Positions 45,253-49,741 are shown, counted from the stretch's first letter. The stretch is 64,000 bases of DNA from Candidatus Saccharimonadota bacterium (GCA_017531585.1 JAFXKT010000002.1:382203-446202); one strand, 5' to 3'. The notes: generated by a model from the sequence alone, not told the origin. Made by a program: numbers and translations.

Positions 45253-45267
45253 TGGGCGGTATAGGAT
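45253..45267 (-). repeat. Copy of the tRNA-Val 3' end
   Basis: 15 bp identical to 45423-45437, the T-loop/acceptor end of tRNA-Val, in the same orientation and 170 bp downstream of it. It has the look of an attachment-site duplication. Confidence 0.65.
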
Positions 45268-45419
45268 ACGTCCTTTTGCTCCGCAAAAGGACATCGTCGG
45301 GCGTCGCCTCTTATTTGAAGAATAAAATTGTCTAGATAGGTTTTTTCTTCTTGTGAAGCGCTGTTATTGACAGAGCGAGCAAGAAAAAATGCCTAGATAG
45401 GCAATTTTAACTTCAAATA
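45268..45419 (-). other. Element between tRNA-Val and its 3'-end copy
   Basis: From the tRNA outward: a TGCC/GGCA terminator, an imperfect ~107-nt inverted repeat centred on the 24-bp repeat at 45355-45378, a GAGGCGACGCCC segment (45299-45310) and a 10-bp GTCCTTTTGC / GCAAAAGGAC hairpin next to the 3'-end copy. The 24-mer, the 12-mer and the hairpin position recur at the tRNA-Leu locus. Confidence 0.55.
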
Positions 45420-45496
45420 TGGTGGGCGGTATAGGATTCGAACCTATGACCTCTTCTACGTCAAAGAAACGCTCTAGCCAACTGAGCTAACCGCCC
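45420..45496 (-). tRNA. tRNA-Val (GAC)
   Basis: 77 nt. Acceptor GGGCGGT / ACCGCCC, anticodon arm TTTCT-TTGACGT-AGAAG with GAC, T-arm around GGTTCGAATCC, encoded CCA. Confidence 0.96.
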
Positions 45497-45540
45497 TTTA
45501 TTCCCATATAATACCAGATTAAAAACCAAAAATCAACAGC

Positions 45541-45569
45541 CCATAAAAAGACCCCGCGAAACCGCGGGG
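45541..45569 (-). terminator. Terminator of the 45646-46191 gene
   Basis: CCCCGCG / CGCGGGG stem with TCTTTTT on the minus strand. Confidence 0.85.
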
Positions 45570-45645
45570 CCATACAAGAAGAAAAAGCGCATGACTTCTA
45601 GAGAAAGAACCAAAACCCAGAATCACGCACCATGGAAATAGCTAC

Positions 45646-46191
45646 TTATTCTACCGTAACGATAGCGAGCTTAATGTCTTTTTCCGGATTATCTGCCCTG
45701 GTTTCCAAGAACCTCTTTGTCATTTCCGTAACTGCCTCGACCTGTCCTTCGCTTATCTTAATCTCAGACGCGAGTCTTCCTGCCTCGCCGCCAAAGCGGC
45801 TATGAGACAGAACAAAGCCTTTCATTTCGTCCTCTGCGTCTTTGTAAGCGGGCACCACGATTCTCTTCGAATGACCGAGTGCGACTCTGCCAGGAGTAAT
45901 AATATTTACGATAAAGACAGAGTTCCACTTTGCGCAGCCAGTCGTAAGATCAATGCCGATGGACGGATAATACTTAGGCAGCTCGGATTCGAGTCTTCCC
46001 CAGAGCAGCTCAACATTCATCTCGAACTCGTTAGTAGGAGCGAGACGCCAAGAACTGGTCCAGTTGTAGAAACGGAAGCGGTTGCGGTTTTCGATCTTCG
46101 CAGACTCGAGCGAACGCAGGCTTTCGTCAAAGAAAAGTGCGTCGATGTCGAGTTTTCCGTCGGTAAGGAAACGTTCCTTGATAGTACTCAT
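45646..46191 (-). CDS. Hypothetical protein, accessory-type gene
   Basis: 181 aa, soluble, no membrane segment. Mixed alpha/beta look, with a Trp/Arg/Phe-rich core (RFRFYNWTSSWRLAP) and a charged C-terminal helix. Not recognised. GGGGAGGT precedes the ATG, but the leader contains a complementary AAGTACCT that can pair with AGGTACTT over the ribosome site. A good promoter, a leader hairpin and a terminator make it a self-contained unit between two tRNA genes. Confidence 0.7.
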   Translation of the reverse strand: MSTIKERFLTDGKLDIDALFFDESLRSLESAKIENRNRFRFYNWTSSWRLAPTNEFEMNVELLWGRLESELPKYYPSIGIDLTTGCAKWNSVFIVNIITPGRVALGHSKRIVVPAYKDAEDEMKGFVLSHSRFGGEAGRLASEIKISEGQVEAVTEMTKRFLETRADNPEKDIKLAIVTVE

Positions 46192-46193
46192 AT

Positions 46194-46292
46194 AAGTACC
46201 TCCCCATTAAAAATAGAAGCAGCTTAATCTCCAATCATATTAAGGTACTTCCATAAGATTTACCCTCTAAAACCTTTGTGGTTTTTCGAGAG
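46194..46292 (-). promoter_or_regulatory. Structured leader of the 45646-46191 gene
   Basis: Next to the start site CTCT..AAAACC / GGTTTT..AGAG forms a hairpin (46265-46292). Closer to the gene, AAGTACCT (minus strand, 46243-46250) is complementary to AGGTACTT (46201-46194), which overlaps the ribosome site. Between them is a 4-codon frame ATG GAA GTA CCT TAA. This arrangement could control translation. Confidence 0.45.
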
Positions 46293-46300
46293 CATGCCTA

Positions 46301-46329
46301 AATATACCATGATTATCTAGCTGCTTCAA
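46301..46329 (-). promoter_or_regulatory. Promoter of the 45646-46191 gene
   Basis: TTGAAG, 17-nt spacer, TATATT on the minus strand. Confidence 0.65.
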
Positions 46330-46371
46330 GCACAAGCAAATAAGCTTCGAAAATTCTTTCCCTGCCACCAC

Positions 46372-46400
46372 TTGCAAAAAGTCAAAATAAGATATATAAT
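46372..46400 (+). promoter_or_regulatory. tRNA-Lys promoter
   Basis: TTGCAA, 17-nt spacer, TATAAT, 10 nt before the mature tRNA 5' end. Confidence 0.75.
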
Positions 46401-46410
46401 ATCAGGTGTT

Positions 46411-46487
46411 GGGTCCGTAGCTCAGGTGGTTAGAGCACCTGCCTTTTAAGCAGGGTGTCGTGAGTTCAAGTCTCACCGGACTCACCA
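46411..46487 (+). tRNA. tRNA-Lys (UUU)
   Basis: 77 nt. Acceptor GGGTCCG / CGGACTC, anticodon arm CCTGC-CTTTTAA-GCAGG with TTT, T-arm GTGAG-TTCAAGT-CTCAC, encoded CCA. Confidence 0.96.
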
Positions 46488-46510
46488 TTTCGAAATCTTT
46501 CATATGTAAA

Positions 46511-46537
46511 AACGACTCCCTAAAGAGCCGTTTTTTC
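46511..46537 (+). terminator. Terminator (tRNA-Lys, also usable from the minus side)
   Basis: AACGACTC / GAGCCGTT stem with T runs on both sides. Confidence 0.8.
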
Positions 46538-46542
46538 TTGTT

Positions 46543-47448
46543 CTAGTCCTCTTCGCCTGCGATTGGTTTGCGATGCTTCTTGCGAATAATAGCTACCACT
46601 ACAATAAGTACAATAATCGCAAACAGCACACCCCCAGCAATAAATACGCTTGCCCAAGGCAAATTAATGACGGTCTGTTTCAGAGTAGATTCGATTAGTT
46701 CCCCATTGCCATTTACGTACGTAACCGTCTGTTCAAGCTTATAAATACCATATTGATCCCGCGCAAACTCGCTAGCATCAAATTTTACTTCAGAACCAGC
46801 CGGAACTTCCTTTGTTTCAGAAATAATATCCTGAAAATGCTCTAGGCCAAAAGCTTCACCTTTCCTCAGTGTATAAGTCGTTACAAAACCCGCACTACCC
46901 GTGTTCTTGACAGTTGCGCCAGCCTGAATCTTGCCACCAAACGAAATCGAACGTGCATAGTTTCCACCAAGCGAGCCAGTTTTACTAAAACCATCACCGA
47001 GTATATCCATACGAACATCTATAGTCTTGAAAGTCTCAGATTCCAGATTAAGTTTTACAGATGCATAATAAGTGCCAGCCTTTACTGTATTTGGAAGATG
47101 CACGCGAACATTAACTACAGATTCGCCACCAGCTGGAACTGTATATTCATTCTTGCCATCAACAAAAGTTAGCCATTCATCAGCAATCTTGAAATCATTA
47201 CTCACGTTGCCATTCTCATAAGGCCCAACACTAGCAACAACCTTCTGCTCAGTGTCCGAATGATTACGTACGGTAAAATTCTGTGTATAAGAACGGCCGA
47301 GCTCACTAAGCTCGCCAAAATCTACATAATCCTTGTCTGTTTCAAAAATATTTTCGGTGCTATCAGCATACGTAAGCCCGCCAAAACACAGCACAAGAGC
47401 TAAAGCCGCTGAAGCTACAAATTTTATTTTCTTAAAAAAATTCTTCAT
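46543..47448 (-). CDS. Membrane-anchored surface protein, DUF916-like
   Basis: 301 aa. Signal peptide (first ~28 residues), two Ig-like beta-rich domains, then a C-terminal membrane helix (about 265-290) and a basic tail. The segment NFTVRNHSDTEQKVVASVGP and the following strands resemble the DUF916 domains of Gram-positive cell-surface (WxL-type) complexes. It should be exposed on the cell surface, possibly for host-cell contact. The next surface gene upstream (47533) may be its partner. Confidence 0.75.
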   Translation of the reverse strand: MKNFFKKIKFVASAALALVLCFGGLTYADSTENIFETDKDYVDFGELSELGRSYTQNFTVRNHSDTEQKVVASVGPYENGNVSNDFKIADEWLTFVDGKNEYTVPAGGESVVNVRVHLPNTVKAGTYYASVKLNLESETFKTIDVRMDILGDGFSKTGSLGGNYARSISFGGKIQAGATVKNTGSAGFVTTYTLRKGEAFGLEHFQDIISETKEVPAGSEVKFDASEFARDQYGIYKLEQTVTYVNGNGELIESTLKQTVINLPWASVFIAGGVLFAIIVLIVVVAIIRKKHRKPIAGEED

Positions 47449-47500
47449 AGTTCACGCACCTCACTAGTTATGATTCTATTTTAGCATAAATAATATGCAC

Positions 47501-47527
47501 CAAAAAGCGCCCACATTTGGAGCGCTT
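47501..47527 (-). terminator. Terminator of the 47533-48555 gene
   Basis: AAGCGC / GCGCTT stem, then TTTTT on the minus strand. Confidence 0.6.
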
Positions 47528-47532
47528 ATAAA

Positions 47533-48555
47533 TTATTTAGACGACTTTTTGAGCTTTACTGCGATAGCTGTAGCGGCTCCACCAACAATCAAAGCAACAG
47601 CCAAAATTGTTAGATAGCCGTTAATATTATCCGCTGTATTTGGTACATAGGTAATATCGCTCGAAGGAGCTGGCGCTGGAGCCGGGGTTGGTTCCGGTTC
47701 TGGTTCTGGCTCAGGAGTTGGCGCTGGCGTTGGAGGGGTCGGTTCCGGTTCTGGTTCAGGCTCAGGTTCTGGAGCTGGAGGAATAGGATCTGGTTCTGGT
47801 TCCGGTTCCGCATCTGGATCCTGTTTGTATGGACGAGTTGGTGCACCATAGCCACCAATCAAATCGCCACAATCCTCATTATTGCCTTCAATATTAATGC
47901 CGTTGACAGTTAAAGTGTAGCCACAAAGATAAATATTCGAGAAGTCTTGAACTTCGTCAGTAAGATAGTAAATGGAACTATTGCCGGTCAAGTACAAAGT
48001 CGAATCATTAGAAAGTAGCAAAGCAATGCTACCATTAAGGCTACCGCGAAAAATATTTCCGTTCGTCATCGAAGCATTCAAAAATGCTCCACCAAGCGTA
48101 GAAATTGCACCATTAGCGCTAGAGTTTGATTCAAAGAAAATTCTAGAGTTACCATTCCTAGCAACGACTAGATCACCATTACTAGAAGCAGCGCTCTGAG
48201 ATAATCTTAATTCCGCATTATCATTTAACCAGAAAGCATTACCGTTCGCACTATTTGCAATAACAGTACCGCCAATCAAGCTTAACTTAGCATCCGTAAC
48301 TTCCACAGCAGCGGAATTAATACCACTAGCAGTGATCGTAGCAAGGCTCAGCTCACTCTCTCCACCATTAACAAGTAGTGAAGATATTCCGTCTTCAATG
48401 CCAGAATAAACATCACCTGTCGTAGAGAGGCTATCAGAAATCTCGTACTGACCGTTATGATTCGTAGCGGCAACAGAAAACGCAAGAAGCGCAGAACCAA
48501 GCAACACTGCACCGCCAGAAACATAGAAAGAGAGACCTTTCCTATTCCTTCTCAT
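47533..48555 (-). CDS. Surface protein with Pro-Glu repeats and a sortase-like C-terminal signal
   Basis: 340 aa. Signal peptide, a Ser/Asn-rich beta-helix-like region (about 35-230), a stretch of about 60 residues built from PEPEP and PAPTP units, and at the end YVPNTADN followed by a hydrophobic helix and KLKKSSK. That end has the layout of an LPxTG-type sorting signal, with VPNTA in place of LPxTG. The Pro-Glu stretch would span the wall. The DNA of that stretch is a direct-repeat tract (47680-47810) prone to slippage, which could vary its length. Confidence 0.8.
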   Translation of the reverse strand: MRRNRKGLSFYVSGGAVLLGSALLAFSVAATNHNGQYEISDSLSTTGDVYSGIEDGISSLLVNGGESELSLATITASGINSAAVEVTDAKLSLIGGTVIANSANGNAFWLNDNAELRLSQSAASSNGDLVVARNGNSRIFFESNSSANGAISTLGGAFLNASMTNGNIFRGSLNGSIALLLSNDSTLYLTGNSSIYYLTDEVQDFSNIYLCGYTLTVNGINIEGNNEDCGDLIGGYGAPTRPYKQDPDAEPEPEPDPIPPAPEPEPEPEPEPTPPTPAPTPEPEPEPEPTPAPAPAPSSDITYVPNTADNINGYLTILAVALIVGGAATAIAVKLKKSSK

Positions 48556-48875
48556 ATTAATCCTTTTTGTTTTTATTTTTGTTTCGACTTTTTGACCTTG
48601 TCTTACAAAAATTTTAGCATAAGAAGATTGGATTGTCTAGTAGGTTTTATATATCTATAGTCCAGCACGCAGCAGCAATCGATTTTTTGAATATTTGATC
48701 TGCCTCGGACGCCTAGTAAAGGCTATACCCTATTGACAATATATGCCGCTTATGCTATAATAGTCGTCAGAGTTTGAGAATTTCTCAGGCTCAGTAGTTT
48801 TCCGGCAGAACATCCCAGCAGTCCAGAGCGGGGAAAACCCCTTAATCTACATGGCTCGGACTTTTAGGAGGAATT
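48556..48875 (+). other. Intergenic region with a promoter and structured leader
   Basis: Between divergent genes. The right half holds the promoter at 48733-48761 and an about 108-nt leader for the 48876 gene. The leader can form GAG..GAGA / TCTC..CTC at its 5' end and either GTTTTCC / GGAAAAC or GGGG-AAAA-CCCC further on; the last two are mutually exclusive. No known riboswitch was recognised. Confidence 0.55.
48733..48761 (+). promoter_or_regulatory. Perfect consensus promoter
   Basis: TTGACA, 17-nt spacer, TATAAT, reading into the 48876 gene. Confidence 0.9.
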
Positions 48876-49253
48876 ATGAGTATTTGTGCGTCGTCTGAAT
48901 GGGGCACCAAGTTCAAGGAAGTAGCGCAAGACCACGGTCTTGAGCCGACTATCCACATTGAGCCCTTCGGCTACCCCGGTTACGCAGTCATCCGTCATGG
49001 TCACCGCGACTGTTTGTATTCCCTCGACGAATGGGGATTCAAGGCATTTCTCCAGGACTTACCGATATACTCAACGGCAACTTTCAGACCCAAGTTTATA
49101 GCTCTTGCAGCTAAAGCCGGGATCGAAGAAGCTATCGCCGCGTGGGGTCACACAGCAATTTGGTTTCACCACGGAGAGTACTCCCTCAACAAGAACGGTT
49201 ACGACGCGTTCGTACGGAGACTCAAGCGTGAGTTCCCTGCACTCAACGAGTAA
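48876..49253 (+). CDS. Hypothetical small protein, accessory-type gene
   Basis: 125 aa, soluble. AGGAGG 6 nt before the ATG. It contains two similar halves: YSLDEWGFKAFLQDL and YSLNKNGYDAFVRRLKREF share the pattern Y-S-L-(D/N)-x-x-G-(F/Y)-(K/D)-A-F-(L/V), each preceded by a GH-containing strand (IRHGHRDCL, FHHGEYSL). The protein may be an internal duplication. Not recognised as a known family. It has a fully consensus promoter, a long structured leader and strong terminators. Confidence 0.75.
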   Translation: MSICASSEWGTKFKEVAQDHGLEPTIHIEPFGYPGYAVIRHGHRDCLYSLDEWGFKAFLQDLPIYSTATFRPKFIALAAKAGIEEAIAAWGHTAIWFHHGEYSLNKNGYDAFVRRLKREFPALNE

Positions 49254-49296
49254 TACCGTTCTACCATGCTGTTATACTGCTGTTCCGTTCTGCTCA

Positions 49297-49336
49297 CAAA
49301 CCCCCCGGAGCGAAGGCTCTGGGGGTTTGCCGTTTT
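49297..49336 (+). terminator. Terminator of the 48876 gene
   Basis: CAAACCCCC / GGGGGTTTG with an inner GGAGC / GCTCT stem, then CCGTTTT. Confidence 0.9.
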
Positions 49337-49341
49337 ATAAG

Positions 49342-49366
49342 ACCGCTAGGGCGGTATTTTTTATAT
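49342..49366 (+). terminator. Second terminator
   Basis: ACCGC / GCGGT stem with a TTTTTT tail, just behind the previous one. Confidence 0.7.
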
Positions 49367-49388
49367 AAAAAAATCGGCCTTTTGGTCA
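49366..49388 (-). terminator. Weak minus-strand terminator
   Basis: GACC-AAAA-GGCC followed by GATTTTTTT on the minus strand; could end a transcript coming from the tRNA-Leu side. Confidence 0.4.
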
Positions 49389-49399
49389 TTTCTTTATTT

Positions 49400-49423
49400 G
49401 AAGCGCTGTTATTGACAGAGCGA
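49400..49423. repeat. 24-bp repeat shared with the tRNA-Val locus
   Basis: Identical over 24 bp to 45355-45378 and itself an imperfect hairpin (GC-CTGT / ACAG-GC). In both places it lies just beyond a TTGCC/GGCAA terminator on the 3' side of a tRNA-type end. Confidence 0.75.
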
Positions 49424-49451
49424 AAATAAAAAATTGCCCAAATAGGCAATT
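49424..49451 (-). terminator. Terminator beyond the tRNA-Leu 3'-end copy
   Basis: ATTGCC / GGCAAT stem, then TTTTTTATTTT on the minus strand; similar in sequence to the terminator after tRNA-Val. Confidence 0.65.
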
Positions 49452-49465
49452 CTAAATCGAATTAA

Positions 49466-49612
49466 TGGTGCGCCCGACTAGACAGCTGGCCAAATAAATT
49501 TGGCCAACATTGCGGGGCGTCGCCTCGGAAAATCCGAAGCGCCCGCGCTTCTCTGTTTTCTCTCGGCTCCTACCGCAACCGAACTACGTTCTCGTCTAGT
49601 CTGGGGCAGCCA
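49466..49612 (-). ncRNA. Candidate structured RNA/element ending in a tRNA-Leu 3'-end copy
   Basis: Nearly 150 nt with nested complementarity: GACTAGAC / GTCTAGTC closing stem (49594-49601 with 49476-49483), TTGCGG / CCGCAA (49573-49578 with 49510-49515), an 8-bp TGGCCAAA / TTTGGCCA hairpin (49487-49506) and a CTTCGG / CCGAGG hairpin between. On the minus strand it ends ...GTCTAGTCGGGCGCACCA, 18 nt identical to the end of tRNA-Leu including CCA, and a terminator follows. I do not recognise RNase P, SRP, tmRNA or 6S RNA in it. Strand and transcription are inferred; the fold is nearly symmetric, so the plus strand is possible. Confidence 0.45.
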
Positions 49613-49650
49613 AGAATAAAAATAAGACCCGTCGGGTCTTCTTTTTATTC
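49613..49650 (-). terminator. tRNA-Leu terminator
   Basis: AAGACCC-GAC-GGGTCTT stem extended by AT pairs, with an ATTTTTATTC tail on the minus strand. Confidence 0.8.
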
Positions 49651-49651
49651 T

Positions 49652-49741
49652 TGGTGCGCCCGACTAGACTCGAACTAGCACAGCTCTAAAATGGCCACTA
49701 CCACCTCAAGGTAGCGTGTCTACCAATTCCACCACGGGCGC
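49652..49741 (-). tRNA. tRNA-Leu (GAG)
   Basis: 90 nt, class II with a long variable arm (GTGGCCATTTTAGAGCTGT region). Acceptor GCGCCCG / CGGGCGC, anticodon arm CTACC-TTGAGGT-GGTAG with GAG, encoded CCA. Confidence 0.95.

Follow-up and report, generated by a model that had tools for sequence, protein, structure and literature searches.

Two tRNA genes of a Candidatus Saccharimonadota bacterium, tRNA-Val(gac) (45420..45496; ARAGORN) and tRNA-Leu(gag) (49652..49741; ARAGORN and Rfam tRNA), both intact and on the minus strand of the 64,000-nucleotide stretch analysed here (the window; JAFXKT010000002.1:382203-446202), are followed by DNA that has two short sequences in common. This raises the question of whether one kind of element lies behind both genes and what part the tRNA plays in it. 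The first of these sequences, the 24-mer GAAGCGCTGTTATTGACAGAGCGA, is identical at 45355-45378 and 49400-49423, where shuffles expect 0 occurrences, and the 12-mer GGGCGTCGCCTC is identical at 45299-45310 and 49515-49526 (0.12 expected with one mismatch allowed). On the minus strand, which is that of the tRNAs, the 12-mer is followed at both loci by a short spacer, a hairpin that we term P6 (inverted repeats of 10 bp at 45270-45292 behind Val and 9 bp at 49487-49506 behind Leu) and a copy of the tRNA 3' end, detected as a direct repeat (45253-45268 for Val, without the CCA; 49466-49483 for Leu, covering nt 59-76). The preliminary description had placed all these sequences in a single family; this holds for the 12-mer, the hairpin and the tRNA copy but not for the 24-mer, which belongs to an unrelated structured repeat.

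The 24-mer is the apex of this separate palindromic repeat (module A), which lies outside the element with the 12-mer. Module A is an imperfect palindrome of 105-120 bp, one arm of which carries the tRNA terminator. Behind tRNA-Val(gac), where it occupies 45311..45419 (inverted repeat and congener alignment), an alignment of 13 congeners gives 39 predicted pairs, of which 21 are changed on both sides, with 95% of the cells paired. Here it takes the place that is held by the terminator and the 5' half of the element in the congener G011, whose Val locus has the same downstream flank. Behind tRNA-Leu a partial module A with a terminator (49393..49465; sequence, repeat and terminator scans) comes after the tRNA copy. 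The two modules are differently placed, and therefore both sequences are common to the two loci yet stand at different positions. An exact genome search with the 12-mer returned three copies, all in elements of the same kind, the third being at tRNA-Gly(ccc). For the 24-mer, in contrast, at least one near-copy with 2 mismatches (locus L004) has no tRNA within 1.5 kb. In the window and at L320-L346, module A takes the form of a long, conserved and strongly covarying terminator hairpin behind several tRNAs of the genus, with a conserved apical CGCTC..TAA..GCGC, and at L005 (1480-1720) several half-copies occur in a row behind tRNA-Arg(cct).

The element that holds the 12-mer, hereafter the tRNA-tail element or unit, is 100-190 bp long, with a longer unit at tRNA-Gly(ccc) that contains two cores. 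Along the tRNA strand, its order is CCA, a palindromic terminator, an antisense copy of tRNA nt ~70-49, a sense copy of the T-stem 5' strand with TTCG, a core, and the tRNA sequence from nt 58/59 onward (to 76), often with the same terminator repeated. A partial second tRNA copy holds the conserved core of ~50-110 nt in its T-loop, with sense nt 49-57 ahead of the core and nt 58-76 after it; the host tRNA itself is intact and retains its own terminator. The antisense piece constitutes the 5' strands of two helices, P1 and P2; the T-stem piece with TTCG is the P2 3' strand, and the copy from nt 58/59 onward is the P1 3' strand. The antisense copy, the sense T-stem copy, the structure of the core and the E. 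coli relative treated below had been overlooked in the preliminary description.

At the Leu locus, a palindromic intrinsic terminator with 22-nt arms that are 95% complementary (49610..49654; inverted repeat and terminator scan) fills the interval between the tRNA and the unit. The antisense of the tRNA-Leu 3' strand, i.e. the P1 5' strand, lies at 49594..49609 and has 87% pairing with 49469-49483, its assignment being further based on isoacceptor permutation. The P2 hairpin GAACGTAGTTC (49581..49591) copies in its 3' strand the T-stem 5' strand and the TTC of the T-loop. P2, P3, P4 with its tandem G.A, and P5 make up a type Y unit at 49507..49593, recognized by covariation and by an R3 score of 85.2 bits, given by a sequence that was itself among those used for model building; the 12-mer falls inside this unit. 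At the Val locus, only a 3' remnant of a type Y core is seen (45293..45310), identified by by-eye alignment to the intact G011 unit and holding the 12-mer. Across the window, Rfam reports nothing but tRNA above a family cut-off, and the promoter and terminators at the Leu locus are matches to consensus only.

The matching between unit and local tRNA extends well beyond these two loci. In the source genome, 11 of the 44 distinct tRNA genes have their own nt 59-70 copied within 420 bp downstream with at most one mismatch, as against 5 of 1892 mismatched pairs of tRNA and downstream region. The proposal that the last part of the family is the 3' end of the local tRNA proves true for most copies across the genus. 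The antisense piece has a mean pairing score of 22.5 with its own tRNA versus 16.8 (sd 0.6) when isoacceptors are permuted, with a maximum of 19.7 in 20,000 permutations, and the T-stem piece scores 3.06/5 against its own tRNA versus 2.30 (sd 0.14; maximum 2.89). Six of the six units of tRNA-Leu(caa), whose T-loop has TTCA, contain the CA. The cores are of two types: type X, GGTTCGTCCAATGCCCGG..CGACGGCGCATTGTTTAT, is found at Gln, Ser, Lys(ctt), Arg and Glu(ctc), and type Y, GGAGCCGAG..CGAGGCGACGCC, at Ala, Asn, Glu, Gly, Leu, Lys(ctt), Ser(tga), Tyr and Val; which of the two is present at Lys(ctt) and Glu(ctc) depends on the species. Together, they cover about 20 isoacceptors across the genus. 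Among the fetched loci, a sample biased to those bearing cores, there is no unit at the His, Arg(cct), Arg(gcg) and Met tRNAs. Tandem arrays are frequent, with spacings of, for example, near 105, 118, 135 and 143 bp. Truncated units are likewise common (in the source genome at Leu-caa, Leu-taa, Gln-ctg and Val-gac); therefore, any function would be dispensable at a given tRNA.

We predict that the unit closes as a four-way junction, with the antisense piece pairing with both sense pieces to form P2 and P1. In 20 type Y sequences, the structure has 28 pairs that are 91.2% paired, a figure favored by the derivation of the structure from the same 20 sequences; the stronger point is that 15 pairs are changed on both sides versus 9.3 in shuffled alignments. 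The covariation score is 0.333, as against 0.144 for shuffled and 0.06-0.10 for slid alignments. P3 alone occurs as 33 distinct strand pairs, with 4.8 of 6 positions paired versus 3.0 when shuffled, and in about half of the 20 sequences two adjacent P3 positions lack standard pairs, being mostly tandem G.A on reading. This structure was recovered from a parsed alignment, whereas MAFFT with RNAalifold on all Y units gave P5 only, due to misalignment. Type X cores have compensatory stems such as CAATGC/GCATTG, CAAAAC/GTTTTG and CAATAC/GTATTG. Selection seems to act on the fold of the element itself, because P1 still pairs in several elements in which its two strands have both diverged from the tRNA sequence. 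At L288 the P1 antisense pairs with the copy at 12 of 12 positions and with the tRNA at 10, and at L303, L277 and L257 the pairing is likewise better with the drifted copy. Among 30 flagged cases, several of which are mis-assigned neighboring tRNAs, the copy pairs better in 17 and the tRNA in 10, with 3 ties; the drift argument therefore depends on a small number of clear cases. Truncated tRNA copies, for their part, retain about the 11-13 nt that pair.

The X core is present in 33 of 45 genomes of the genus and in none of 36 other genera sampled; in a pattern scan of 84,980 species genomes it was restricted to Ca. Saccharibacteria, mostly from gut or rumen where the source is named, apart from one chance match (L214). 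The Y core is also present in 33 of the 45 genomes, and a structural Y model has matches in 24 of 379 genomes of the phylum. Among these, the layout was confirmed in a different genus of the same family (Val(tac) and Val(gac)), in a different family of the same order (Thr(tgt)) and in further families of the phylum, Patescibacteria (Gly(tcc) and Arg(gcg)), with R3 matches in other genera that fall on opposite-strand tRNA genes or away from tRNAs being counted as chance or unconfirmed. The nearest neighbor of a core is at the same tRNA in 53 of 90 cases and in the same genome in 2 of 90. A core is hence closer to its counterparts at that tRNA in other species than to the other cores of its genome, which makes the units old residents; recent intragenomic transposition was rejected on the same count. 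Within P4/P5 there is a weak same-genome similarity (43/3000 permutations), and the Val(gac) unit is confined to three genomes (G011, G035 and G000) among 27 loci read; these two observations suggest that units are gained. Viral carriers were also considered and rejected, the scan with the X pattern giving none and that with the Y pattern two matches, both by chance; a distant phage search with RttR returned one 515-kb Salmonella record in which RtT was already annotated. Our literature searches found no description of elements of this sort in Patescibacteria.

What the data establish for these units is their layout, tRNA specificity, covarying fold, persistence and tandem copies. We consider it probable, if by no means certain, that they are RtT-like tRNA-tail elements in which the fold is maintained by selection at the RNA level and the stems are derived from the tRNA by an origin through copying. 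Transcription of the units would start at the tRNA promoter and reach them by read-through; the one locus scanned showed no separate promoter for the unit, and an intrinsic terminator is often present downstream of the tRNA copy. The folded RNA would then be the target of selection. A new unit might arise by a copying event, either fold-back or template switch, that puts a core into the T-loop, with the same event rebuilding P1 and P2 from the target tRNA. Later recombination between direct repeats could account for both tandem arrays and losses. Our best guess is that the RNA has a role linked to tRNA supply or stress.

The same tRNA genes also serve as addresses for larger islands. Large serine recombinases, found in 16 congeners, mostly adjoin tRNAs; such sites are usually exploited by tyrosine integrases, so serine recombinases there are unusual. 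At L172-L189 they are convergent beside tRNA-Leu, Gln, Ala, Asn, Phe, Glu and Gly. Islands behind tRNA-Lys(ctt) and Gln(ctg) (L131 2900-8995, L133 4477-8040, L134 11176-15219, L132 5057-15800 and L190 1712-8238) contain genes for restriction-modification, Fic/macro-domain proteins, a Schlafen-type helicase or ABC transporters, and some hold a large serine recombinase, whole or as a fragment. Behind tRNA-Lys and Gln, the islands stop at, or close to, CACCA or a unit and lie upstream of complete units. Since at tRNA-Lys this end is CACCA with a complete unit downstream, the serine-recombinase islands look like a different element using the same tRNA address. The idea that the units are integron-like cassettes with cargo, as the restriction-modification, Fic/macro and ABC-transporter neighbors at tRNA-Lys could imply, was rejected, as the islands end at CACCA and are tied to serine recombinases. 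Elsewhere, a tyrosine integrase accompanied by small HTH-like and AAA/RecA-like genes is situated directly upstream of a tRNA-Arg(tcg) (L137 566-2873, G027:C3), which has an X unit 755 bp downstream.

Such neighbors bear on an alternative that we regard as unlikely, namely that the units are relics of attachment sites, or minimal passengers, of integrative elements with the tRNA 3' end as attB and a recombinase (tyrosine, Xer or serine) supplied in trans. A direct repeat of the tRNA 3' end beside an intact tRNA, the tandem disposition of the units, and the presence of large serine recombinases and one extra tyrosine integrase at tRNA genes of the genus are all consistent with it. However, the units are gene-less, with no recombinase gene fitting into 100-190 bp; the source genome has a single tyrosine recombinase, nearest to XerD/XerC, and no PF07508 serine recombinase; and the serine-recombinase islands behind tRNA-Lys seem to be an element in their own right. 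Nor does this alternative predict the antisense copy, the T-stem piece or a covarying multi-helix core. Palindromic units with two paired boxes, arrays at tRNA genes and nearby cargo islands also recall folded single-strand sites of the integron type, i.e. attC analogues exchanging cassettes at tRNAs. We give this hardly any credence: no integron integrase was found in the source genome, whose sole PF00589 protein reaches 128.7 bits against a cut-off of 265 (integrase_gron) and is best matched by XerD; no R/L boxes (GTTRRRY/RYYYAAC) were seen when the aligned units were read by eye; the cargo belongs to the serine-recombinase islands; and the core is multi-branched and conserved in sequence.

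The antisense piece, in turn, has complementarity to both the copy and the real tRNA, and the unit sits in the read-through path of the tRNA. A cis regulator could be built on this, in which the antisense binds either its own copy or invades the tRNA precursor and thereby sets tRNA output. The departure of both P1 strands together from the tRNA sequence (L288, L303 and L277) and the intrinsic terminator between tRNA and unit count against such a switch and make it rather improbable; the drifted pairs, with the paired length of the truncated copies, speak against a design for binding the tRNA itself. Since tRNA end, terminator and antisense copy amount to one long inverted repeat, and decayed units are common, the units might instead be neutral by-products of template-switch duplications at palindromic tRNA terminators, which look structured as inverted repeats and have no selected function. 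We consider this very improbable, as the core does not come from the tRNA, has been conserved between families and carries compensatory changes.

If the preferred reading of the units as RtT-like elements is correct in that they copy the local tRNA, they would exemplify an unusual, protein-free adaptation of a small element to new sites. If their retention reflects an RNA function, these highly reduced genomes would contain a set of tRNA-linked RNAs that calls for an explanation; the source is a small gut bacterium in which about a quarter of the tRNA genes have an element behind them. A wider possibility, which we raise tentatively and hold to be doubtful, is that these units belong to a broad unrecognized class of tRNA-tail RNAs stretching from Patescibacteria to Enterobacteria, which would spread without a protein of its own and have its stems rebuilt from the T-arm of each new host tRNA.

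Among known systems, tRNA-integrated mobile elements with their attL/attR resemble the units in having a tRNA 3'-end copy beside an intact tRNA, but the units have no recombinase gene, span just 100-190 bp, and possess a conserved structure and an antisense copy. Integron attC sites are likewise imperfect palindromes in tandem arrays, from which the units differ in being tRNA-bound, in their multi-branched core, and in having neither an integron integrase nor visible attC boxes. REP and other extragenic palindromes are similarly short, gene-less, structured and repeated; unlike them, the units have their site set by a tRNA and match that tRNA in part of their sequence.

The only close known relative is the tRNA-Tyr repeat of E. 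coli. In K-12, four such units are found at tyrT/tyrV, one of them annotated as rttR (b4425; Rfam RF00391), and a match is present in 4,695 of 5,426 E. coli genomes surveyed, at 1-14 places per positive genome; in strain SK1144, the tRNA-Tyr pair that was read has no annotated unit and is followed by a coding gene. Early-1990s work reportedly presented RttR as an RNA that is freed from the tyrT transcript and has an effect on the stringent response, and we know of no agreed origin or function for either the repeats or the RNA. With the Rfam RtT model, Y units align over the full length (1-130) but score at best 34.0 bits against a gathering cut-off of 45, the E. coli repeats scoring 133-138 bits as a control; hence we name them RtT-like rather than RtT. 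At least 16 of the 18 sub-threshold matches in the genus are on X or Y units. In the reciprocal search, the Y model found no match in the E. coli repeats, so that what is demonstrated is a shared layout and not common descent. The E. coli repeats further differ in core sequence, in their restriction to tRNA-Tyr in the records read (versus about 20 isoacceptors), and in that no intrinsic terminator is seen between tRNA and unit. Nevertheless, they too lie downstream of the tRNA, end in a perfect tRNA-Tyr 3' end, have an antisense stem (GGGGAAGGAT) and a T-stem piece (AAGGTTCGA), and occur in tandem, 178 bp apart. A tandem GA motif has been reported for RtT from covariation analysis (PMC7657543), and type Y units have one as GCCGAG/CGAGGC. 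The Patescibacteria units thus have the tRNA-3'-end location, the antisense closing stem, the P2 T-stem copy and, in Y, the G.A of RtT, while falling short of its score. X cores, Y cores and the E. coli tyrT repeats all obey one rule, a core set in the T-loop of a partial tRNA copy with the antisense strand as a splint, which can be searched for and tested; with the layout present at about 20 isoacceptors in Patescibacteria, one odd E. coli locus becomes a rule-bound class.
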